A DNA stretch of 64,000 bases from Petrimonas mucosa (lineage in GTDB: Bacteria > Bacteroidota > Bacteroidia > Bacteroidales > Dysgonomonadaceae): NCBI RefSeq assembly GCF_900095795.1, contig NZ_LT608328.1, positions 1,915,001 to 1,979,000 on the forward strand. The letters are read 5' to 3'. Of the stretch, positions 698 to 56,323 are shown one piece after another (within the stretch, counting starts at the first letter, position 1; each line of letters opens with the position of its first letter). The position numbers and the translations under genes are program-made. A model generated the notes under the pieces. That model saw only the letters and a list, made by a program, of their open reading frames with translations. It did no database searches and was not told where the DNA came from.

Positions 698-2365
698 CTT
701 AAAAATCTCATTTAAAATTCCCAACTCAAGTTAATAGTTTTCAAAGCGGAATTTCTCTTTTTTTTCGAGAGATACCGTTTTATTTTCTTTTCATCTTCAC
801 TGTTTCTTGCACGTTTAACGTGTTGATTTACTTTTTATGGTGGCGTTTTTATATATATTAACATTACCACTCTTCCAAGGCATGGCAATTCCTTGTCATA
901 AACCCTTTTACGACACGAAAGATGGCGATGGACGATTAAGTGAAAATCCGTCATCCGGTCATCGTTGTCGTTATTCGCTGCTCAAAATCACGCCACCCCG
1001 CTTTTCGGTAATACTCCTTAGGCATTTTTACCGTGACCTGCCTGCCGGATTTCACCACTTTACCCGGCACTCGGATAAACCATTCTCGGAAGGTAGAGTG
1101 CTCTTGACGCCAAACCCAAAAGTCGCCCCGGTATCGCATGAGCACCGATAAACTGTAGGCAAATGACGAAAGTTGCCAAAGAATATCGTTTACCCAAAAA
1201 TCATGCGTGATGGTTTTTCCCGCACAAAGCGAGTTTTTGGTTTGCTCGATCCAATTCTCACTCTCTGATCGGGATCCATAAAGGGTATGGAGCTGCAAGG
1301 CATCCAATCCTTTCAGGTTCGAGCAATAGCAAAAGTACTCATACTCGGGTACAAATTGTTTTTCGCCAAAATAATCGACTTCAACCATTTGCTTTATGAT
1401 GCGCACGGCATAAAACATGCGGGGATTCCTCCAACCGCTACATTGATGTGTAAACTGACAGGTCGCCGTCCGTGGGCCAATCGGCTGCCAAGTCTGCCCG
1501 GCAAGTAAATCTTTCAGGTTTTTCAGCTTTACTTTCACCAAATATTCATGTTTACCGTCTTCTAACAAATTAAATAATCCACCATTGAAAAAACCGCTGT
1601 CGGCCCTGAAAAACACCTTCTCCACCTTTTGGGGAAGAGCGGCCAAGGTTTCTTTGACAAACTCACAAACTCCGTTTGAGGTGTAAGCTGAACCCGGGCG
1701 GAGCCATGAATTGACAAGCAGTTTCATCTCCGTGACAAAACATAAGATGGGGTGATAGCTTTTCGAACCCTTCTTATGCGAGTTATAACCCACCTCAGCC
1801 CCTTGTTGGTTGCCGTAAACGGTAAATGTGCTTGAGTCGCAATCAAGTGTCAAGCGGCTTAAACCGCAACGGGAAACTTGCATGCCTGTAAAACCCAACA
1901 ACAGCTCGTGAAGCGAACGGGCGCCCCTTTCACCCAAACCTGTCAAATGGCGGCGTATGGTGTCCTCGTCAATGTTCTTGGGTAACTTCAACAAGCGGGC
2001 AACCAAGGCGTCAAAGGTGAAGTTTTCAATCCGCTTCAAACGGTGAACACCGCACAACGATGCCAACAGGATACTTGAGAGTATTTGGGCTGTGCTGAAA
2101 CGGCTTGCATTGTGCCGGATGGTTGGGAAAAGATGTTCCAGCCGGCGATAAATGCCACAATGGTTGATAAAATCAGAGGTTACGCTTAACCCTGAATATG
2201 ACGTTAATTGTTCTGAACTGAACTCTTTCTTTACTGAACTGGCAGTAAATGAGATTTTTTTACTATTTTTGTATTGCATGTGTCGGGTGAGTGTTATTTT
2301 TTATTTAACACCTTAAAGATAAATACTTTATCTGGCACATGCAACTTTTATTTGAGACTTTTAGG
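698..2365 (-). mobile_element. IS1380-family insertion sequence, copy A (complete, 1,668 bp)
   Basis: Both ends are visible. The right end reads CCTAAAAGTCTCAAATAAAA on the minus strand and the left end reads CTTAAAAATCTCATTTAAAA on the plus strand, an imperfect inverted repeat. The element is flanked by a perfect 5-bp direct repeat TTTGA (693-697 and 2366-2370), the duplication size expected for IS1380. It carries one intact transposase gene and about 250 bp of non-coding tail (698-950). A second copy lies at 60040 in the opposite orientation. The insertion separates rsmE from the M81-type gene. Confidence 0.93.
951..2279 (-). CDS. IS1380-family transposase (copy A)
   Basis: 442 residues, ATG at 2279. 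DDE transposase that cuts and joins the ends of its element. Family marks: TLDCDSSTFTVYG with the first catalytic Asp, then QGAEVGYNSHKKG and SYHPILCF, then FFRADSGFF with the second Asp, the usual IS1380 order. The reading frame is intact, so the element could be active. Its product differs from copy B at about two dozen positions, all in the first two thirds; the last roughly 160 residues are identical. Confidence 0.93.
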   Translation of the reverse strand: MQYKNSKKISFTASSVKKEFSSEQLTSYSGLSVTSDFINHCGIYRRLEHLFPTIRHNASRFSTAQILSSILLASLCGVHRLKRIENFTFDALVARLLKLPKNIDEDTIRRHLTGLGERGARSLHELLLGFTGMQVSRCGLSRLTLDCDSSTFTVYGNQQGAEVGYNSHKKGSKSYHPILCFVTEMKLLVNSWLRPGSAYTSNGVCEFVKETLAALPQKVEKVFFRADSGFFNGGLFNLLEDGKHEYLVKVKLKNLKDLLAGQTWQPIGPRTATCQFTHQCSGWRNPRMFYAVRIIKQMVEVDYFGEKQFVPEYEYFCYCSNLKGLDALQLHTLYGSRSESENWIEQTKNSLCAGKTITHDFWVNDILWQLSSFAYSLSVLMRYRGDFWVWRQEHSTFREWFIRVPGKVVKSGRQVTVKMPKEYYRKAGWRDFEQRITTTMTG

Positions 2366-3831: not shown

Positions 3832-3906
3832 GGTGGTTATAGCTCAGTTGGTTAGAGCGACGGATTGTGGTTCCGTAGGTCGCGGGTTCGAGTCCCGTTT
3901 TCCACC
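3832..3906 (+). tRNA. tRNA-His (GTG anticodon)
   Basis: Cloverleaf seen by eye: D arm GCTCAGTTGGTTAGAGC, anticodon stem ACGGA/TCCGT around TTGTGGT (anticodon GTG), and T arm GCGGG-TTCGAGT-CCCGT. Position 3832 is the extra G-1 expected of tRNA-His and faces a C discriminator. The acceptor stem GTGGTTA / TTTCCAC would carry two adjacent T-T mismatches, which is unusual. CCA is not encoded. Confidence 0.9.
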
Positions 3907-3953
3907 CGAATTCACTGATAGTAAGTGTTTTCTCTTTTAGATTTGTTTTAGGT

Positions 3954-4003: not shown

Positions 4004-4591
4004 CTACCTGTGTCGTCCTTGCAAAACAGCCTCAATATCTTCCAGCTTTAACGACTTGGTCTTCAGCAGGATCAGGAAGTGGTAGAGCAGGTCTGCCGCC
4101 TCGTTCTTGAAGAGATCGATATTGTTGTCTTTCGCTTCGATAACCAGTTCTACTGCCTCTTCCCCCACCTTTTGTGCCACCTTGTTCACCCCGCTGTTGA
4201 AAAGCCTGCTGGTGTAGGACCCCTCAGCATTGCTCCCGATCCGTTGCTCGATCACACTCTCCAGTTCGTAGATAAACCCTTTGGCAATCTCACCTGAAAA
4301 ACAGCTTGTGGAGCCGGTATGACAGGTGGGACCCTGCGGAAGCGCCTTGATCAGCAGCGTGTCGTTGTCGCAATCTTCAAGAATCTCATCTACTACAAGA
4401 TAGTTACCGGAGCTCTCCCCCTTGGTCCACAACCGGTTTTTGCTTCGGCTGAAGAATGTCACCTTGCCTTCCGATCTGGTCTTTTCGAGTGCCTCTTTGT
4501 TCATATAGCCGAGCATCAGCACTTGCAATGTATGGCTGTTCTGAATGATAACCGGAACCAAACCTCCGGATTTTTCGAAATTGATTGTCAT
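4004..4591 (-). CDS. hisIE: Bifunctional phosphoribosyl-AMP cyclohydrolase / phosphoribosyl-ATP pyrophosphatase
   Basis: 195 residues. The N-terminal HisI domain (to about residue 115) opens the ring of PR-AMP and shows the zinc site: EDCDNDTLLIKA, then GPTCHTGSTSCF. The C-terminal HisE domain (about 118-195) removes pyrophosphate from PR-ATP and shows KVGEEAVELVIEAK and DLLYHFLILL. These are steps 2 and 3 of histidine synthesis. Last gene of the his operon; its ATG is 5 bp after the hisF stop. The fused form is standard in Bacteroidetes. Confidence 0.97.
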   Translation of the reverse strand: MTINFEKSGGLVPVIIQNSHTLQVLMLGYMNKEALEKTRSEGKVTFFSRSKNRLWTKGESSGNYLVVDEILEDCDNDTLLIKALPQGPTCHTGSTSCFSGEIAKGFIYELESVIEQRIGSNAEGSYTSRLFNSGVNKVAQKVGEEAVELVIEAKDNNIDLFKNEAADLLYHFLILLKTKSLKLEDIEAVLQGRHR

Positions 4592-4596
4592 GATTT

Positions 4597-5361
4597 TTAT
4601 GTTTGTTGGATTCTTACTTCAACTTGTTGTTGTCTCAGGAATTGTTTCAACTGGGGAATGGCAATTTCTCCAAAATGGAAAATGCTGGCCGCCAGCGCGG
4701 CACTGGCCTTTGTCTGCTGAAAGAGATCGGCAAAATGGTTCATGGTGCCTGCACCGCCCGAAGCGATGACCGGGATGTTCACCCCGGCGGAGATGGTAGC
4801 CGTGATATCGAGAGCAAAACCGTTTTTGGTTCCATCGTTATTCATCGATGTCAACAGGATCTCACCGGCGCCACGACGCTCCCCCTCCCTTGCCCAGTCG
4901 ACTGCCCTAAGCGGGGTGGGGGTTCTGCCCCCGTGGATATAGACTATCCATTCATCATGTTCCAGTTTCGTGTCGATAGCCAGAACAACGCACTGGCTGC
5001 CAAATTCCGCCGCAATCTCCGTGATGAGTTCGGGATGTTGTACCGCCGCCGTGTTGATGCTTACCTTGTCGGCACCCGCCTTGATGATCGCCTGTGCGTC
5101 TTCCAGCGAGTTGATTCCGCCCCCTACGGTAAAGGGAATGTTGATCTCCCGGGCAATCTTTTCAACCAGTTCCGTCAGGTTCTTACGTTTCTCAACGGTG
5201 GCCGTAATGTCGAGAAAGACCAGTTCGTCCGCCCCCTCCCTGACATAACGTTTAGCCAGTTCCACTGCGTCGCCGGCATCGCGGAGTCCGACAAAGTTTA
5301 CCCCTTTCACCGTTCGCCCGTCCTTGATGTCGAGACAGGGAATAATTCTTTTCCTGAGCAT
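4597..5361 (-). CDS. hisF: Imidazole glycerol phosphate synthase, cyclase subunit
   Basis: 254 residues, full length. A (beta/alpha)8 barrel that uses ammonia from HisH to convert PRFAR to imidazole glycerol phosphate and AICAR. Catalytic aspartates are visible in [10 protein letters not shown] (Asp11 equivalent) and VVLAIDTKL (Asp130 equivalent); phosphate-binding loops FTVGGGI and VIASGGAG are present. Partner hisH lies two genes upstream in the same operon; hisA precedes it by 24 bp. Confidence 0.97.
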
Positions 5362-5385
5362 ATCGTTTGATATTTTAGTCTCACG

Positions 5386-6105
5386 TTACAGAAACCCTGC
5401 AACGCGTAATTCGTTCAGTTCTATCTTGCCTTCGTACAACGCTTTCCCGATGATGGCTCCTTCACATCCCAGCGCCTTCACCGCCTTAAGGTCGTCAATT
5501 GATGTTATGCCGCCGCTGGCAATCAGCTTGACGCCGGTCGCCTGCAGTATCTCCGCATAGAGTTCGATGGAAGTACCTTGCAGCATACCATCCTTCGATA
5601 TATCCGTACAGATCACAAAGCTAACCCCTTTACGTTCGTAACCGGCAATGAAATCCACCACATCCAGGTCAGATTCCTGTTGCCATCCGTGAGTGGCAAT
5701 TTTTCTGCCATGACTGTCGGCACCCAGGATGATCTTGTCGGCACCGTATTGGTCCAGCCACTTCAGAAAGAGATCGGGGTTCCGGGCCGCAATGCTTCCT
5801 GCGGTAACCTGTGCGGCTCCGTTTTCGAAAGCAATACGCAGATCCTCGTCACTTTTGATTCCTCCTCCGAAGTCCACCTGCAGTGAAGTGGCAGTTGCAA
5901 TTTTTCTTAGAACATCCTTGTTTACAATGTGATTCGATTTTGCTCCATCCAGGTCGACCAGGTGCAGGTAGCCGATTCCGCTCGCTTCAAAAGCCTTTGC
6001 CACCTCTACAGGATCTTCGTTATATACCTTTCGGGTGCTGTAGTCGCCTTTGGTCAGGCGTACACACTTCCCGTCGATGATGTCTATGGCTGGAATGATT
6101 CTCAT
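5386..6105 (-). CDS. hisA: ProFAR isomerase
   Basis: 239 residues, full length. A (beta/alpha)8 barrel that carries out the Amadori rearrangement of ProFAR to PRFAR. Marks: [15 protein letters not shown] with the catalytic Asp at the end of strand 1, [18 protein letters not shown], and [13 protein letters not shown] with the second catalytic Asp. Homologous to HisF, next in the operon. It starts 27 bp after the hisH stop. Confidence 0.97.
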
Positions 6106-6132
6106 GCGTTCTCTCCTTTGAATGGGTAGCTT

Positions 6133-6711
6133 TTAGAGTTTCAAAAAATTGCCCAGTATCCTCTCGCCGACACTCGCCGATTTCTCGGGATGAAACTGTG
6201 TGGCAAAGAAATTCCGGTGCTGCATGGCCGCACTGAACGGCAATATGTAATCGCACGTGGCGATGGTCTGGCTGCAGATTTCGGCATAGTAGCTGTGTAC
6301 GAAATATACCGTATCTTCGCTGCCAAAGCCGTCGAACAGCAACGATCGCGTCTGCTTCAGGTCGTTCCATCCGATATGTGGAACGATGTCGGTTGTCGGA
6401 AATCTCTTTACTGAGGTGTCGAAGAGTCCAAGGCAATTGGTGTTTCCCTCTTCCGAATGGCGGCACAACAGCTGCAGTCCGAGGCATATTCCCAGTACGG
6501 GCTGTTCAAGCGATCTGATAAGCCTGTCCATCTTCCGTTCCCTCAGGTACTCCATGGCCGACGATGCTTCACCTACGCCGGGAAAGATCACCTTCGCGGC
6601 CCGCCTGATCTCTATCTCGTCATCGGTAACGGAACAGTTGTATCCCAACCGTTCCACCGCATTCTTTACCGATGCGATATTGCCTGCGTTATATTTGACA
6701 ATGGCTATCAT
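6133..6711 (-). CDS. hisH: Imidazole glycerol phosphate synthase, glutamine amidotransferase subunit
   Basis: 192 residues from the ATG at 6711 (MIAIVKYNAGN), the expected HisH start; an open frame continues upstream but only by running through hisB. Class I glutamine amidotransferase that hydrolyses glutamine and feeds ammonia to HisF. The nucleophile Cys is in VLGICLGLQLL; the His-Glu pair is in TQFHPEKS. Its ATG is one base after the hisB stop, so translation is probably coupled. Confidence 0.96.
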   Translation of the reverse strand: MIAIVKYNAGNIASVKNAVERLGYNCSVTDDEIEIRRAAKVIFPGVGEASSAMEYLRERKMDRLIRSLEQPVLGICLGLQLLCRHSEEGNTNCLGLFDTSVKRFPTTDIVPHIGWNDLKQTRSLLFDGFGSEDTVYFVHSYYAEICSQTIATCDYILPFSAAMQHRNFFATQFHPEKSASVGERILGNFLKL

Positions 6712-6712
6712 G

Positions 6713-7804
6713 TTACAGTACTCCTTTGGTGCTGGGGATACCCCCCTCTTCTCCACGTTCCACGGCCATCCGGACCGATCTGGCAAATGCTTTGAATATC
6801 GCCTCCACCTTGTGGTGGTCGTTATGCCCTTCAGCTTTGATATTGAGGTTGCATCTGGCGTTATCGGAGAAGGATTTGAAGAAGTGGAGAAACATCTCGG
6901 CAGGTACATCGCCGATCATCTCACGGGTGAGATCGACATTCCAGACCAGCCAGGGACGACCGCCGAAATCGATTGCAACCTGCGCCAGACAGTCGTCCAT
7001 CGGCAGCAGGAAGCCGTATCGTGCAATCCCTTTCTTTTTTCCCAGTGCCTGCAGGAAAGCCTCGCCGAGGGCAATGGCCGTATCTTCAACCGTATGGTGC
7101 TCATCGATATGCAGATCGCCCTTGACCCGTATGGTCAGGTCAACCTTCCCGTGGCGTGCAATCTGGTCCAGCATATGGTCGAAGAATCCCAGTCCGGTCG
7201 TAATCTCGCTTTTTCCCGATCCGTCGAGGTTTACCTCCACAAAAACATCGGTCTCGGAAGTTGATCGTCGCACCACACCTCTTCTTGGCTCCTGTTTCAG
7301 GAAGGCGTAGATCTCCCCCCAGTCGGTTGTTGAGAGTACGGCATCACTGCACTTTTCCCGGTTCAGGTATATCGCTTTACAACCGAGGTTGCGGGCCAGC
7401 TGGAGATCGGTTTTCCGGTCGCCGATTACGTAAGAATTTTGCAGGTCATACCCCCCTTTCATGTAGTGGCTCAACATTGCCGTTCCCGGCTTCCGGGTGG
7501 GTAGCTGCTGGTGCTCGAACGAGCGGTCGATCAGGATGTCGCTGAAATAAATTCCCTCGTTTTCAAAAGCCCGCAGCATTTTGTTGTGTGCCGGCCAGAA
7601 ACTCTCTTCGGGAAACGACGCCGTTCCCAGACCATCCTGGTTGGTAACCATCACCAGTTCGTACTCCAGTTCCCGTGCAATCCGCGACAGGTACTGGAAT
7701 ACCTTGGGGTAGAACTCCAGCTTCTCCAGGCTGTCGACCTGATAATCGACAGGAGGCTCGATGATCAATGTACCGTCACGGTCGATAAACAACACTTTTT
7801 TCAT
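6713..7804 (-). CDS. hisB: Bifunctional histidinol-phosphatase / imidazoleglycerol-phosphate dehydratase
   Basis: 363 residues from ATG 7804 ([13 protein letters not shown]); the open frame upstream overlaps hisC and is not used. The N-terminal HAD-type phosphatase (about 1-165) shows DRDGT, MVTNQDG and [12 protein letters not shown]. The C-terminal dehydratase (about 170-363) shows the paired metal-binding motifs [28 protein letters not shown] and [14 protein letters not shown]. It supplies two steps (IGP to IAP, and histidinol phosphate to histidinol), so no separate histidinol phosphatase is needed. Confidence 0.96.
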
Positions 7805-7824
7805 GATCAATATACTATTTTCAT

Positions 7825-8865
7825 TCACCTTGCAGAACCATCCAGAAGGTAGAGCTCCTTCAGCAGTTGCCTGTTTTCGTCGGGAGTGCCGACGGTTATC
7901 CGTACACAATTTGTCACCTGAGTAGTGCGGTTGCGGATAATCACCTGCTTCTCCACCAGATGCCTGTAAACCCGGTCGGCATCCGAAACCTCTACCAGCA
8001 GGAAATTGGCATCCGATGGGTAGATCCTTTTCACGATCTTCAGTTTTGCCAATTCTTCGACAAGGTGGCTGCGCTGCTGAAGGATGATGTTGCGGCGCTT
8101 CTCAAACTCATCTGCATCTGCAAGCGCTTCCAGTGCCGCCTGCTGGTTAAGCACGCTGACGTTGTAAGGCGGTTTGGTCTTCTCCAGCAACGAGATGATC
8201 TTTTTCCCCGCAAAGGCCATTCCAATGCGTACTCCCGCCAATGCCCACGCCTTACTGAACGTCTGCATCACGATAAGATTGGGATGGCTGCCGATCTTCT
8301 CTTTTAGGCTGTACTCCGGGCAAAAATCGATATAGGCTTCGTCTGCCACCACGATCCCGTTAAACCTGTCGAGCAGTTTCCCGATATTGTTTAACCTGTT
8401 TCCAGTAGGATTGTTCGGCGAGCAGATGAAAATCAGCTTTACCGAGCTGTCCGAACCGGCCGTTTGCAGAATCTTCTCCAGATCGAGCTGGAAGTCGTCG
8501 GTCAACGGAATCCGGTGCAATCTGACGTTGTTGATGTTGGCCGACACCTCATACATGCCATAGGTGGGAGGGCAGACGATGGCGCTCGACTCTCCAGGTT
8601 CACAGAAGATCCGGTAAATCAGGTCGATCACCTCATCGCTTCCGTTGCCGATAAATATCTGATCTGCCGATATCTTCTTGATTTCCGACAACTTGCTCTT
8701 TAATGCCTTCTGGTGAGGATCAGGATATCGGTTAAGGTTCCCGTAGGGATTCTCGTTTGCATCGAGGAAGATGCCTTCACTGCCTGAAAACTCGTCGCGG
8801 GCGCTGGAGTAGGGTTTAAGCGCCAGGATATTGGGGCGTACAAATTTTGTTATATCGTCTATCAT
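7825..8865 (-). CDS. hisC: Histidinol-phosphate aminotransferase
   Basis: 346 residues. PLP-dependent class I/II aminotransferase that moves an amino group from glutamate to imidazole acetol phosphate. Marks: [18 protein letters not shown] near the N-terminus, [19 protein letters not shown] with the PLP-ring Asp, and the Schiff-base lysine in [16 protein letters not shown]. It starts 11 bp after hisD and ends 20 bp before hisB. Confidence 0.97.
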
Positions 8866-8876
8866 CTATCATCATC

Positions 8877-10190
8877 TTAATATTGGGACTGTTCACTCTG
8901 AAATCGCTTCGATACCTCCTCAAGCCGCAGTGTCATGGCGTTCTTGTGAGCAATGAGCGCTTCGGCTTCGGCCATGGTTTCGACGGCCGCTCCGATGCTT
9001 GTGATCCCCTCTTCCGTGAGCTGCTGAAAGGTGATCTTCTTTACAAAACTGTCCAGCGAAACGCCGCTGTATGCTCGTGCATGTCCACTTGTGGGAAGTG
9101 TGTGATTGGTTCCGCTGGCGTAATCGCCGGCGCTTTCGCAACTGTAGTTGCCCAGGAAAACGGAACCGGCACTGGTTACCTCCCGGCTGCGCAGTACGGG
9201 ATTCTCCACTGCGAGAATCAGGTGCTCGGGCGCATAGAGGTTGCTGAATCGGATGCAGGTGTCGATATCCTTGAACTGGATGGCCCGGCTGTTTTTCAAC
9301 GCCTTTTCCGCAATATCTTGTCGCGGCAGGTTGCTCAGTTGGATCTCCAGTTCCCTGTTCACCTCCCGGATTACCTGCTTATTGTCCGACAGGAGGATCA
9401 CTTCGCTGTCGGGACCATGTTCGGCTTGCGACAGCAGATCGGCGGCAACGAACGACGGATGGCAGCTGCTGTCCGCCACCACAACCAGCTCGCTGGGACC
9501 GGCAGGCATGTCGATGGCAGTGCCATAATATTGGGCTGCATGCTTTGCCGTCATCACGTACTGGTTTCCCGGGCCGAAGATTTTCTCCACCTTCGGAACC
9601 GAATGGGTACCGAAACACATGGCTCCGATGGCTTGGATCCCTCCAAGTACCACTACACGGGTTACGCCGGCAAGGGATGCCGCATAAAGGATGGCTGGAT
9701 GAACGGTCCCATCCTTGTCGGGTGGTGTACAGAGCACGATCTCGCTGCAACCGGCTATTCTGGCAGGAACGGCCAGCATCAGGACGGTGGAGAAGAGCGG
9801 TGCGGTTCCTCCCGGGACGTAGATCCCCACTTTCTCGATGGGCCGTGCCTCACGCCAGCAAACCACACCGGGGGAGGTCTCCACTTTCAGGGTCTGCTCC
9901 TGTTGCGAAAGGTGGAACTTCTCGATATTCCTTTTTGCAAGGCCGATGGCCTCCTTCAATTGTTCCGGTATCGATGAGGCTGCGGCTGCAATCGTCCCGG
10001 CATCCACCGTAAACTGTTCTGCCGCAAAACCGTCAAATTTCCGTGCATATTTCAGCAAGGCCTTGTCCCCCTTTTTCCGGATATCGTAAAAAACGGTATT
10101 TACCAGCTCCATCAGCTTGGCCTGTTTGATGGCGGACCGTTCTGCCAGTTTCGGCCACCTTTTTTCTGAAGGGTTATTTATCGTCTTCAT
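8877..10190 (-). CDS. hisD: Histidinol dehydrogenase
   Basis: 437 residues, full length. Zinc enzyme that oxidises L-histidinol to L-histidine with two NAD, the last pathway step. Marks: VYVPGGTAPLFSTVLMLAVP, DMPAGPSELVVVAD, the family signature LLSQAEHGPDSEVILLS, and LYAPEHLILAVEN. Separated from hisG by only three bases. Confidence 0.97.
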   Translation of the reverse strand: MKTINNPSEKRWPKLAERSAIKQAKLMELVNTVFYDIRKKGDKALLKYARKFDGFAAEQFTVDAGTIAAAASSIPEQLKEAIGLAKRNIEKFHLSQQEQTLKVETSPGVVCWREARPIEKVGIYVPGGTAPLFSTVLMLAVPARIAGCSEIVLCTPPDKDGTVHPAILYAASLAGVTRVVVLGGIQAIGAMCFGTHSVPKVEKIFGPGNQYVMTAKHAAQYYGTAIDMPAGPSELVVVADSSCHPSFVAADLLSQAEHGPDSEVILLSDNKQVIREVNRELEIQLSNLPRQDIAEKALKNSRAIQFKDIDTCIRFSNLYAPEHLILAVENPVLRSREVTSAGSVFLGNYSCESAGDYASGTNHTLPTSGHARAYSGVSLDSFVKKITFQQLTEEGITSIGAAVETMAEAEALIAHKNAMTLRLEEVSKRFQSEQSQY

Positions 10191-10193
10191 CGA

Positions 10194-11051
10194 TCAGAGT
10201 ATCATCTTTTCAATATTCATCACCAAGATTCCCTGGGCCTCCACATCCTTCAGCGCATCGATCACATCCCAGAACTGGTCTTCCTGTACCACCGAGTGGA
10301 TACTGCTCCATCCCTCCTCGGCAAGCGGCAGGATACTGGGCGACTTCATTCCCGGAAGAATGGCACAGATCCTTGGAATCGACGAATTGGGCGCGTTCAT
10401 CACGATATATTTGCTTTCCACTCCCCGCTTGTAGGCCCTAATACGGAACAGAAGCCTCTCCAGGAGTTCCCGACGGGCAGGAGTGAGCTGCTTGTTTGCA
10501 ATCAGCACTGCCTCGCTCTTGATGATCGCCTCCACCTCCTTCAATCCGTTCATTATTAATGTACTACCGGTGCTTACTATATCGAAGATCCCGTCGGCCA
10601 GGCCGATTCCGGTCGCAATTTCCACACTTCCCCCCAGCTCCTCGATCTTCACATCGATGCCTTTCTTGCTGAAGAATTTCCCAAGGATTTTGGGATAGCT
10701 GGTGGCAATCCGCTTACCTCGGAAATATTCCAGACCGGTATACTCCTCATCTTTGGGAATCGCCAGCGAGAGCCTGCAGTTACCAAAACCGAGCTTCTCA
10801 ATCTCGTCCACCTCCTTCTCTTTTTCCCACACTTCGTTCTCTCCCAGAATACCGATATCAGCAACGCCGTTTTCAACGTATTGCGGAATGTCGTCATCTC
10901 TCAGAAAGAGAATCTCCATGGGGAAATTGCGGGCCTCCGTCCTCAGCTTCCTGTCGCTGTTCGACACCTTGATACCGCATTCGCTCAGCAACTGCAACGA
11001 TTTCTCACTCAATCGCCCTGTTTTCTGGATGGCTATTTTCAGCTTTTCCAT
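10194..11051 (-). CDS. hisG: ATP phosphoribosyltransferase (long form)
   Basis: 285 residues from ATG 11051 (MEKLKIAIQKTGRL); an open frame upstream would start inside the attenuator terminator and is not used. It condenses ATP with PRPP, the first and feedback-controlled step. The catalytic part shows ADIGILGENEVWE and the PRPP loop FDIVSTGSTLIMNGL. At this length a C-terminal ACT-like domain is present (about residues 210-285), so the long HisG form that needs no HisZ applies. First structural gene of the operon, 47 bp after the attenuator's T run. Confidence 0.96.
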   Translation of the reverse strand: MEKLKIAIQKTGRLSEKSLQLLSECGIKVSNSDRKLRTEARNFPMEILFLRDDDIPQYVENGVADIGILGENEVWEKEKEVDEIEKLGFGNCRLSLAIPKDEEYTGLEYFRGKRIATSYPKILGKFFSKKGIDVKIEELGGSVEIATGIGLADGIFDIVSTGSTLIMNGLKEVEAIIKSEAVLIANKQLTPARRELLERLLFRIRAYKRGVESKYIVMNAPNSSIPRICAILPGMKSPSILPLAEEGWSSIHSVVQEDQFWDVIDALKDVEAQGILVMNIEKMIL

Positions 11052-11097: not shown

Positions 11098-11127
11098 AAA
11101 AAAAAACCGCCTGAAATCTTCAGACGG
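11098..11127 (-). terminator. Histidine-operon attenuator terminator
   Basis: On the minus strand, CCGTCTGAA-gat-TTCAGGCGG forms a 9-bp stem with one G-T pair and a 3-nt loop, followed at once by nine T. It lies between the leader peptide stop and hisG, so as an ordinary terminator it would silence the operon. Leader segment TCAGGCG (11170-11176) repeats the 3' arm and can pair with the 5' arm instead, giving an anti-terminator. Confidence 0.88.
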
Positions 11128-11163
11128 GTCAATATTGTGGATTGATGCTTCTACATATCCTTA

Positions 11164-11220
11164 TCACCTCGCCTGACAGCAAGTATGAAAATGATGATGG
11201 TGAAGCTTGTTTACTTTCAT
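11164..11220 (-). CDS. His-rich leader peptide of the histidine operon
   Basis: 18 codons from ATG 11220 to TGA at 11164-11166: MKVNKLHHHHFHTCCQAR, with four consecutive His and a fifth two residues later. Too rich in His to be chance at this spot. The stop codon lies just past the segment that competes with the terminator stem. A ribosome waiting for charged tRNA-His at codons 7-12 would leave that segment free; one reaching the stop would cover it. This is the arrangement of a classical amino-acid attenuator. Confidence 0.88.
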   Translation of the reverse strand: MKVNKLHHHHFHTCCQAR

Positions 11221-11239
11221 TTTATCTCATTTAATGTCG

Positions 11240-11247
11240 CAAAGTTA
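11240..11247 (-). promoter_or_regulatory. Promoter -7 box of the his operon (TAACTTTG)
   Basis: Exact TAnnTTTG match on the minus strand, 19 bp before the leader-peptide ATG. TTG-containing -33 candidates lie roughly 15-22 bp further upstream. Confidence 0.7.
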
Positions 11248-11418: not shown

Positions 11419-11426
11419 TAAGTTTG
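11419..11426 (+). promoter_or_regulatory. Promoter -7 box of the porin gene (TAAGTTTG)
   Basis: Exact TAnnTTTG match ending only 6 nt before the porin ATG at 11433; the transcript would start at or next to the start codon. Confidence 0.6.
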
Positions 11427-11432
11427 CACCCG

Positions 11433-13457
11433 ATGAGAAAAATCATATTCATAGTTTTATGGATAACCGTCTGTGTCTCCGAATCGATGGCTCAGGCGCG
11501 TGTTATTTTGCCTGATTCGTTGCAAGTGACACCCCGACAGGCTCCACATGATCATCAACATGAAATGGAAGAGCCGTTCGACACCGTCAACCTGGTACTG
11601 CCTGCTGCTACAGTCTGGTATCTTCACCCCAGAAGCGGCGACCGCCTTGTCGCAGCCATGGACACGTTGAAGCACAATTACCAGCAGACCACGATCCCCG
11701 ACGGATATTCGGTTGCAGGCGGATATTTGGGACCGATCGGATCGCCCTTCATCTCGAAAATATTTTTCGAACAAGACGAAACCAGCCATTTCCCGTTTTA
11801 CGATGCTTACAGACCCTACAATAAGTCGCCCGAACAACACCTTTTCTACAATACGCGGGTACCGTACGCCAACCTCACTTATCAGACCGCGGGTAGCCGA
11901 CCGGTAAAGGAGCAACGGTTGAAAGCGTTGCTGACGACCAACTTTGGAAAACGTCTCAATGCGGGCATAGAGGGTGACCTGATCAGTGCAAAAGGATTAT
12001 ACAGGTCGCAGGAGAACAAGCACAACGACTGGTCTCTTTTTGGAAACTACCTGAGCGACAAGTTCGAGAGCCATCTTCTGGCGTCGACCTCCACCGTAAA
12101 GCAGTTTGAGAATGGTGGAATTACCGATGAGCGGTTCATCCTCGATCCGGAATCGGTAGGCGAGAACTTCTCGACAGGCGACATTCCCGTGAAATTCACC
12201 AATACCTGGAACAAGATGAAGACCAACCATCTCTTCTTTTCCGGAAAGTACAATATCGGGTATAACGACCGGTCGGCAGATTCGCTTGGCAGCGGCAAGT
12301 TCGTGCCTGTAGCGAGCCTCGTTATTACGTCGCATTATACGGGACAGGACCGGCGGTTTCTCTCCTATGATACGGCACAGGTAACGATTGAGGGCCAGGC
12401 GATGCAACGTATCGACCAGTTCTATACGAACCGTTATTACAATACGGCGGTTGACGACAGTGTCACCTTTTCATCCTTCAAGAACAGTGTCGCACTGTCG
12501 CTTCGTGAAGGATTCAAACCATGGGTGAAATTCGGTCTGACAGGGTATATAGAACATGAAGTGAGGAACTTCTCGATGATCGACTCGGTCGGCGGTAACA
12601 TCGGCCGGAGCAAACACCGCGAAAACTCCCTTTTTATCGGGGGGATACTGAACAAACAGCAGGGAGAGCATTTCCGTTTCAACCTGCAGGCCAACCTGGG
12701 CATGGCGGGAGCCGATCTTGGGGAGGTGAACCTGGAGGGAGAGGTGGAGACCGCCTTCAACCTGGCCGGAAAGCGGACCGAGCTGAGTGGTCATGCCTAT
12801 CTCCGGAACATCACCCCGAATTACCTTCAGAAACATTATCACTCCAAATATTTCTGGTGGGATAAAGAGTTGGAAGATGTGCGCAGGGCATTTGTCGGCG
12901 GCAGGCTTCATATTCCGTTCACGAACACTACGGTGAATGCAGGCGTGGAAAATCTGCAGAACTATATCTATTTCGATCAAGAGAGAACGGTTGCCCAACA
13001 CGCTCCTAACGTACAGGTGTTGACTGCAGGTGTGGATCAGAATATAAGGCTGGGTGTATTCAACTGGGATAATCGGGTAGTCTACCAGACCTCGAGCAAT
13101 CAGGAGGTAATACCGGTGCCCTCTTTAAGTGTTTATTCAAATATGTATTTGAAAGCGCTTATAGTGAATGAGTTGACCTTTCAGTTCGGTGTCGATGCCC
13201 ATTATCATACCACCTATTTCTCTCCCGGTTACGAGCCGGCTTTGCTTCAGTTCTACAACCAGCGTGAGAAAGAGATTGGTAACTATCCCATTGCCACTGT
13301 ATACGCTAACATGCACCTGAAACAGACCCGTTTTTTTGTAATGCTCTACAATGCTGCGTCCGCCGTATTGAAGCCGCGCGAATATTTCTCGTTGCCCAAC
13401 TATCCGGTAAATCCGATGATGTTCAAAATGGGCCTTTCGGTTGACCTGCACAATTAA
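11433..13457 (+). CDS. Putative outer-membrane porin (Porin_10 type)
   Basis: 674 residues. ATG 11433 gives a signal peptide ending at SESMAQ; a TTG nine bases earlier is possible but less likely. The mature protein is long, beta-rich and full of aromatic residues on alternating positions, with the segment PEQHLFYNTRVPYANLTYQT and NAGIEGDLISAKGLYRSQEN typical of the Bacteroidetes putative porin family. Probably a beta-barrel in the outer membrane; substrate unknown. The solute-binding gene follows 15 bp later and may be co-transcribed. Confidence 0.8.
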   Translation: MRKIIFIVLWITVCVSESMAQARVILPDSLQVTPRQAPHDHQHEMEEPFDTVNLVLPAATVWYLHPRSGDRLVAAMDTLKHNYQQTTIPDGYSVAGGYLGPIGSPFISKIFFEQDETSHFPFYDAYRPYNKSPEQHLFYNTRVPYANLTYQTAGSRPVKEQRLKALLTTNFGKRLNAGIEGDLISAKGLYRSQENKHNDWSLFGNYLSDKFESHLLASTSTVKQFENGGITDERFILDPESVGENFSTGDIPVKFTNTWNKMKTNHLFFSGKYNIGYNDRSADSLGSGKFVPVASLVITSHYTGQDRRFLSYDTAQVTIEGQAMQRIDQFYTNRYYNTAVDDSVTFSSFKNSVALSLREGFKPWVKFGLTGYIEHEVRNFSMIDSVGGNIGRSKHRENSLFIGGILNKQQGEHFRFNLQANLGMAGADLGEVNLEGEVETAFNLAGKRTELSGHAYLRNITPNYLQKHYHSKYFWWDKELEDVRRAFVGGRLHIPFTNTTVNAGVENLQNYIYFDQERTVAQHAPNVQVLTAGVDQNIRLGVFNWDNRVVYQTSSNQEVIPVPSLSVYSNMYLKALIVNELTFQFGVDAHYHTTYFSPGYEPALLQFYNQREKEIGNYPIATVYANMHLKQTRFFVMLYNAASAVLKPREYFSLPNYPVNPMMFKMGLSVDLHN

Positions 13458-55807: not shown

Positions 55808-56323
55808 TTATTTAAGTTTTCTATCCTCTCTTAATATTTGAACTATTCTTTTATCATTCCTCTTATCCTGAATAATCTTTCCTTGAATTAACCCAGGATA
55901 ACCCAGACTCACTTGCATCGTATTGCCAATACCGGTCATATTGGGATCGACCACAACCCAGTCACAACTGACAGAAGAGTAGCTAGGCCAAAAATATCCG
56001 GTATAAACCAATGTATCATTTGCTTTTATTGCAAATGCCAACCCATATACTGATGTCTCAAGTGCCTTGATGGAATTGATTGCCCTGTCCGATAATTCAA
56101 AAATGCATTCTTTTGAGTCGTACGATAGAATATCATCATATTCGATCAGCGGAATCTCTGCCGTAACTACGCTTGATTCAACTATTTGGTATGAATTATC
56201 AACTGTTGTATAACTTTGAATCAGATAGAGTTCAACTTTTCCATTTGTTGTTACATCACCATCACATCCGTACGTGGATAGAAACATTACCCCAAAAAGT
56301 GAAATGATCAGTTTTCTATTCAT
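55808..56323 (-). CDS. Lipoprotein of unknown function
   Basis: 171 residues. Lipobox TYGC (Cys20). The mature part is beta-rich (VELYLIQSYTTVDNSYQIVE, VYGLAFAIKANDTLVYTGYF) and ends with a charged tail. No family recognised. Its AT content and codon choice look more A/T-rich than neighbouring genes, a possible sign of acquisition. Likely single gene. Confidence 0.7.
   Translation of the reverse strand: MNRKLIISLFGVMFLSTYGCDGDVTTNGKVELYLIQSYTTVDNSYQIVESSVVTAEIPLIEYDDILSYDSKECIFELSDRAINSIKALETSVYGLAFAIKANDTLVYTGYFWPSYSSVSCDWVVVDPNMTGIGNTMQVSLGYPGLIQGKIIQDKRNDKRIVQILREDRKLK

Follow-up and report, generated by a model that had tools for sequence, protein, structure and literature searches.

In enterobacteria, the his operon is preceded by HisL, i.e., a short His-rich leader ORF upstream of hisG, with an intrinsic terminator and alternative pairings of the leader RNA. 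The E. coli trp leader is built on the pairings 1:2, 2:3 and 3:4, in which a protector hairpin overlaps the antiterminator strand and the leader stop codon lies next to segment 2. In known attenuators, the antiterminator forms before the terminator. For Bacteroidetes/Chlorobi, Vitreschak et al. are said to have reported, in 2004, candidate attenuators "in some cases", which would lessen the novelty of the system described here.

According to the accessible part of its source, the his leader of Salmonella and E. coli contains an extra hairpin between the pause hairpin and the terminator (PMC1183508). A survey from 2010 states, in its accessible sections, that leader-peptide systems were known only in Proteobacteria and Actinobacteria before its own bacilli cases (PMC2965389), and the accessible part of another paper presents the Bacteroid-trp motif, RF01692, as a candidate cis-regulatory RNA of Bacteroidetes (PMC2864571, 2010). 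A study of Flavobacterium psychrophilum reported strong signs of leader-peptide attenuation ahead of amino-acid biosynthesis operons, together with a structured 5′ element upstream of hisG that is shared with other Flavobacteriaceae genera and has no Rfam hit (PMC9723704, 2021, accessible part). However, that accessible part describes neither an anatomy nor His codons or alternative pairings for these elements, and contains no survey across the phylum. Since it already reports such attenuation in F. psychrophilum, the presence of the mechanism in Bacteroidota is not new, and neither is the mechanism itself. The accessible parts of PMC4833913, PMC6429828 and PMC7366714 contain nothing on a his attenuator in Bacteroidota, and no description of one in Bacteroidales was found in the literature searched, a body of work that excludes most subscription journals. 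Nor did this literature yield a description of the anatomy, the phylum-wide reach or the two sequence types set out below.

The his operon and its leader

The 64-kb window, by which we mean the whole stretch of DNA that was analysed, belongs to a single-contig genome of 3.7 Mb, and the HisG of Petrimonas sp. IBARAKI is that of the nearest named relative (91%). The his operon occupies the minus strand in the order hisG, hisD, hisC, hisB, hisH, hisA, hisF and hisIE, and each of hisD to hisIE scores above the cut-off of an NCBIfam equivalog or equivalog-domain model. We consider it highly likely that the leader of this hisGDCBHAF(IE) operon is a ribosome-mediated, histidine-sensing transcription attenuator. 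The features of the locus are as follows.

11424–13457, plus strand: upstream neighbour gene, divergent from the operon
11247–11240, minus strand: TAACTTTG, probable −7 element (TAnnTTTG) of the operon promoter, from the sequence
11220–11164, minus strand: leader ORF MKVNKLHHHHFHTCCQAR plus stop, 18 codons, from the sequence
11193–11206, minus strand: 5′ strand of the base stem P0 (GCUUC, CAU and AUC in codons 5–10), from the MFE fold and permutation tests
11185–11202, minus strand: five regulatory His codons, 7–10 and 12 (CAC CAT CAT CAT TTT CAT), from the sequence
11179–11183, minus strand: segment 1, CUUGC, which pairs with GCGAG of segment 2
11168–11176, minus strand: segment 2, UCAGGCGAG, antiterminator strand, the 3′ part of which pairs with segment 1; from alignment and covariation
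11147–11159, minus strand: 3′ strand of P0 (GAUAUG...GAAGC), after the leader stop, from the MFE fold and permutation tests
11119–11127, minus strand: segment 3, terminator 5′ arm CCGTCTGAA, whose partner is segment 2 or segment 4; from alignment and covariation
11107–11115, minus strand: segment 4, terminator 3′ arm TTCAGGCGG, from alignment and covariation
11098–11106, minus strand: nine-T run of the intrinsic terminator, from the sequence
10194–11051, minus strand: hisG, first gene of the operon (NCBIfam TIGR00070, 199.3 bits against a cut-off of 75.75; ATG at 11051)
4004–10190, minus strand: hisD, hisC, hisB (bifunctional), hisH, hisA, hisF and hisIE, from NCBIfam models
3833–3907, plus strand: tRNA-His, beyond hisIE

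The first-pass annotation had described an 18-codon leader with five His codons between TAACTTTG and hisG, and a 9-bp terminator stem with nine T ahead of hisG. Both are confirmed in the sequence, the stem including one G–U pair. That the stem is instead the terminator of an upstream minus-strand gene was rejected, because the neighbour upstream is divergent. The tRNA-His gene, which had been placed at the far end of the operon, does lie past hisIE, but it is on the opposite strand and hence outside the operon transcript. A role for this gene was rejected on account of that strand and of its presence in only 2 of 38 relative loci scanned, some of which end less than 9 kb downstream; the two loci (L166, from Petrimonas sp. 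IBARAKI, and L168) are both from the window's own genus. Past the end of the operon, a 442-aa ORF (951–2279, minus strand) looks transposase-like by eye.

Among the ATG ORFs of up to 45 codons in the window, one other contains four His in six codons and no other contains five. Two further ORFs were set aside: a His-rich ORF at 56191 (plus strand), with no terminator by eye in 421 bases, and the mini-ORF ATG AGA TAA just 5′ of the leader ATG, which is absent from the other leaders compared. All 66 family leaders have TAnnTTTG, which we take to be the Bacteroidota −7 motif, in the 70 nt before the leader ATG (57 of 1320 shuffles), and in 65 of them the distance is 18–23 nt. An SD-like 4-mer at −16 to −5 is found in none of these 66 leaders, nor is there one upstream of the window's leader. 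With such a short distance and no SD-like 4-mer, the ribosome must start soon after the RNA appears, presumably on the short, A-rich 5′ end as it emerges. The leader is presumably translated.

Within the leader, TCAGGCG (11176–11170), just before the stop codon, can form seven pairs (one of them G–U) with CGTCTGA (11126–11120). Its proposed role as the antiterminator strand against the terminator 5′ arm is supported by conservation, by co-variation and by the folding model. A further hairpin, 1:2, is possible between 11183–11179 and 11172–11168 (minus strand), in which CUUGC sits in the last leader codons and its partner GCGAG overlaps the antiterminator strand. The MFE fold of the window's leader shows P0 enclosing this hairpin. 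The first-pass description of a single switch between two pairings does not hold, because the 1:2 hairpin and the base stem with the His codons give a 1:2/2:3/3:4 layout. Its assignment to classical leader-peptide attenuation survives for the core mechanism but has to be amended for the layout, which has four segments. In the same way, "simpler than the enterobacterial one" is right insofar as the Salmonella and E. coli his leader has an extra hairpin, but the leader does not consist merely of two pairings.

Leader and pairings among relatives

We call a short ATG ORF a His-rich leader if it lies no more than 300 nt before hisG and has at least four His in six codons. Of 205 distinct Bacteroidota regions, 159 carry one (63/69 in the family, 37/55 in the order, 26/40 in the phylum and 33/41 among further named genomes). 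These 205 regions were used out of 212, with three shorter than 250 nt and four identical ones omitted; in the family, 70 of the 87 hisG matches were taken, with 55 regions from the order and 40 from the phylum, and many of the relatives' genomes are fragmentary. The same criterion applied to any residue other than His is satisfied by at most 5 of the 205 regions, and mononucleotide shuffles of the regions give a His-rich leader in 0 of 1025 cases. The His-rich leader does not stand upstream of hisG by chance. Named carriers include Seramator, Proteiniphilum, Fermentimonas, Empedobacter and Flavobacterium, and MAGs labelled Chitinophagaceae and Saprospiraceae carry it as well. Leader and terminator occur together in 66/70 family, 43/55 order and 26/40 phylum loci. 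Four of the 70 family regions lack the leader: in L026 it lies further upstream, L048 is cut by the contig end and gives a partial covariance-model match, L055 is cut short, and L070 has none within 1.39 kb.

A covariance model of the family element, R1, found matches at E ≤ 0.001 in 58 of 101 family genomes, 53 of these matches having E-values below 1e-15, and those compared by coordinates lie upstream of hisG. Because R1 was built from family leaders, which are most of its matches below 1e-15, this search, which misses most second-branch genomes, tests uniqueness in the genome rather than homology. A second match in genome G082 (E = 9e-4) is weak, has no His leader and looks like chance.

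The family alignment contains 50 leaders, 49 of them distinct. Across the 49 distinct sequences, 98.4% of the cells are paired in 1:2, 99.1% in 2:3 and 97.8% in 3:4, and these values fall to 27–48% when one side is slid; changes in the helices are few because the family leaders are so alike. A wider alignment, A3, holds 96 distinct segments out of 245 loci, leaving out 34 loci without a leader in the searched stretch, 78 with another terminator type, and duplicates for the rest. In these 96 phylum-wide leaders, the paired cells amount to 88.6% (1:2), 95.1% (2:3) and 94.7% (3:4), the last of which is partly by construction because the segments were selected for a leader and a CCG..TG terminator. 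In the same order, 8, 10 and 19 cells are altered on both strands. The percentage paired and the covariation score were reached by 0 of 500 shuffles for each helix (shuffles that do not keep the tree), whereas 55/500 shuffles for 2:3 and 75/500 for 3:4 had at least as many doubly changed pairs. Sliding 2:3 by +1 raises the double-change cells from 10 to 11 and the covariation score from 0.112 to 0.127, although slid versions of 1:2 and 2:3 pair only 30–40% of the cells.

The strongest single fact is one base of segment 3 that co-varies with both of its partners. Together with these partners in segments 2 and 4, it reads G, C, G in 81 of the 96 leaders and A, U, A in six; in three more leaders, segments 2 and 3 have changed jointly and the terminator retains a G–U pair, and the remaining six fit neither pattern, five of them with one broken pair. 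This co-variation of a shared strand supports an antiterminator and a terminator that are mutually exclusive. The first-pass annotation had proposed looking upstream of hisG in relatives for kept His codons and for compensatory changes, and both are there, the latter in 2:3 as well as in 3:4. Taken leader by leader, only 39/66 family, 13/43 order and 16/26 phylum leaders have a 2:3 duplex that is better than shuffles at p ≤ 0.05. In L224 (8854–8954) and L227 (1084–1192), the leader stop precedes segment 2 and the antiterminator strand is still present, which indicates conservation of the RNA, not of the peptide, at these loci, since the frame ends before a strand that remains. The stop of L220 (8860–8960) also precedes the antiterminator strand, which stays with one base changed. 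The three loci amount to a natural experiment on the distance over which the stop can shift.

It may be asked whether only 2:3 and 3:4 matter, i.e., whether the leader is a two-state switch with no working 1:2 or P0, in which segment 1 is conserved for the peptide. With 5 bp, the 1:2 hairpin is short, and it hardly varies within the family, where its covariation comes from one sequence; in the 96 leaders, 1:2 slid by +3 gives 15 doubly changed cells against 8 unslid. However, the eight unslid cells were reached by 0 of 500 shuffles, and codon 14 keeps TGC at its silent position in 48 of the 49 distinct family sequences. In the TGT exceptions, L043 and L215, segment 2 has the matching A, i.e., a C–G pair has become U–A between segments 1 and 2; the 1:2 pair at that position is broken in 7 of the 96 leaders. 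In L253:1–364 (G099), whose contig ends inside hisG, segment 1 reads ACTCCC for ACTTGC and 1:2 is broken, with segments 2, 3 and 4 kept.

The base stem P0 bears on the same question, as, across the family, the bases that immediately precede the His run vary in step with those that follow the stop. The leaders' own P0 pairs have a mean of −5.6 kcal/mol against −4.2 kcal/mol for mixed pairs, a value reached by 0 of 5000 permutations, which ignore relatedness. At fixed register, 170 of 235 cells pair, compared with 39–51% when slid, and 0 of 2000 shuffles reach 170 (47 of the 50 leaders, three without the anchor motif being left out). Only 10 of 47 leaders have their own strand among the best 5%, which is in favour of the two-state explanation, and wider P0 pairing exceeds shuffles of the post-stop region at p < 0.05 in 13 of 50. 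On balance, we regard the two-state switch as improbable. A protector (or pause) hairpin 1:2 overlaps the antiterminator strand, with the reservation that its slid control shows more double changes.

A second branch of the family, which we would guess to be Dysgonomonas and its kin, comprises sixteen leaders (genera g3, g4, g10 and g13) with GGTAAG at or adjoining the leader stop, CTTACC as the terminator 5′ arm and mostly GGTARG as the 3′ arm. Judged by its sequences, this branch appears to keep the four-segment plan with different letters. Its 2:3 helix is paired in 97.9% of the cells, with no double change. RNAalifold finds four terminator pairs with double changes, and it pairs the His codons with a downstream UGAUG, with one pair showing double changes. 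The 1:2 hairpin of this branch, e.g., TTACTGCC...GGTGAGTAA, is better than shuffles (p ≤ 0.05) in 7 of 16 leaders, and its covariation does not exceed shuffles, in part because leaders of unequal length align badly; this, too, is a point for the two-state explanation.

Folding model and proposed working

The ribosome was modelled as a block extending to 12 nt past the A site, on RNA reaching to the end of segment 3; the footprint lengths, whose sizes come from E. coli, and the RNA energies are assumptions of this model. Over the 50 family sequences, the mean P(2:3) of ribosome-free RNA before segment 4 is 0.29, with 0.69 for 1:2. With the A site at His 7, 8, 9 or 10, the mean P(2:3) rises to 0.91, 0.96, 0.97 and 0.98, respectively, and it falls to 0.69 at His 12 and to 0.00 once the A site is at Cys 14 or the stop. 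For the sixteen second-branch sequences, the mean is 0.00 without a ribosome, 0.77 and 0.93 with the A site at the first and the last His, respectively, and 0.00 at the stop, with L069 at zero in all states. Under the assumed footprint, the model therefore agrees with the earlier proposal that a ribosome at the His codons frees TCAGGCG and one at the stop covers it.

In 135 loci with leader and terminator, the pairing of the 5′ arm with upstream RNA was compared between the stalled and the stop states. In the stalled state, it is higher by at least 0.5 in 57/67 CCG-type, 19/36 CTTACC-type, 10/21 other and 0/11 GGTTTGCA-type leaders; the mean stalled pairing is 0.86, 0.82, 0.71 and 0.67 for these groups, compared with 0.44–0.49 when the spacer is shuffled. 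When the full-length RNA is modelled, the terminator wins in every state (means 0.90–0.96), including those with the ribosome stalled; the switch therefore has to be a kinetic one, with the antiterminator forming first.

In the absence of a ribosome, P0, which holds the His codons, and 1:2 would form and segment 2 would mostly be tied up, leaving the terminator 3:4 to form. When His-tRNA is scarce, the ribosome would stall at one of the five His codons and open P0 and 1:2; segment 2 would then be free, 2:3 could form before segment 4 is made, and the polymerase would reach hisG. When His-tRNA is ample, the ribosome would run to the stop codon and cover segments 1 and 2, and 3:4 would end transcription. 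A ribosome stalled on the leader thus very probably switches the operon on, and the supply of histidine would set the read-through into hisG. Such attenuation requires a ribosome close to the RNA polymerase, and coupling of the two at this leader is to be expected.

Divergent leaders and comparison with known systems

Eleven order-level leaders (L074–L077, L079–L082, L084, L094 and L102) have a terminator 5′ arm GGTTTGCA or GGTCTGCA, GGCCTGCG. In the model, none of the 11 GGTTTGCA-type leaders shows an antiterminator beside the leader stop. Either their segment 2 is situated elsewhere, or they function in another way. Another seven His-rich leaders (L146–L149, L126, L157 and L159) lie 67–105 nt upstream of hisG with no intrinsic terminator by the criteria used, and the last His codons of L146 form the hairpin CATCGCCATTGTGGCGAT by eye. 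Their output may be Rho-dependent or translational. In L252 (G071:C75:20800–21560), about 440 nt separate the terminator from hisG, compared with about 46 in the window, and the leader upstream is intact.

Such cases lend something to the explanation that the leader controls hisG translation or works via Rho, the terminator being incidental: by the criteria, an intrinsic terminator is absent from 7 of 33 phylum-wide and 3 of 46 order leaders, which means either another output there or missed terminators (L087 has one by eye). However, a terminator is present in 66 of 66 family leaders, and leader, antiterminator and terminator are tied together by co-variation, which makes this explanation very unlikely. 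At threshold, an Rfam search of the 64-kb window returned four tRNA matches only, with no T-box and no riboswitch; the loci of 20 relatives likewise gave no riboswitch or T-box, and RF00514 (His_leader) reached its gathering threshold in 0 of 20. That the element is a T-box (tRNA-binding) or a protein- or metabolite-binding leader with incidental His codons is scarcely credible given these searches and the short-ORF His codons common to 159 of 205 regions, even though T-boxes are known upstream of hisS in lactobacilli and bacilli (PMC2965389, accessible part).

In many Bacteroidota relatives, the logic of the His leader, read from sequence and predicted folding, seems to be kept with changing letters. 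A tentative reading, which we hold with somewhat less than even confidence, is that an ancestral SD-free His leader in Bacteroidota was re-sequenced into at least two unrelated switches (UCAGGCG/CGUCUGA and GGUAAG/CUUACC) and changed its output in some lineages (the GGTTTGCA-type and the terminator-less leaders). If this is true, tight coupling of ribosome and polymerase would be old and general in Bacteroidota. A his attenuator that selection has kept across the phylum (159/205), SD-free in 66/66 family leaders, is evidence for early initiation and coupling there as well. Histidine sensing in Bacteroidota is now directly testable with reporters.

The best Rfam match of the segment, by bits and by E-value, is RF00514, at 28 bits against a gathering threshold of 49 (E = 0.015). 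Since the element falls below the Rfam threshold in the window and in 20 relatives, it is probably unannotated in many genomes. The Bacteroid-trp motif (RF01692) is a trp motif by name and has no match at threshold in the window. Like enterobacterial HisL, the window's leader places a His-rich ORF before hisG, with an intrinsic terminator and alternative pairings. However, it differs from HisL: it lacks the extra hairpin, it lacks an SD-like 4-mer, and its leader peptide is different. With the E. coli trp leader, it shares the four-segment logic, the protector hairpin and the stop codon beside segment 2, whereas it senses His, has five control codons and possesses an additional base stem that holds these control codons.
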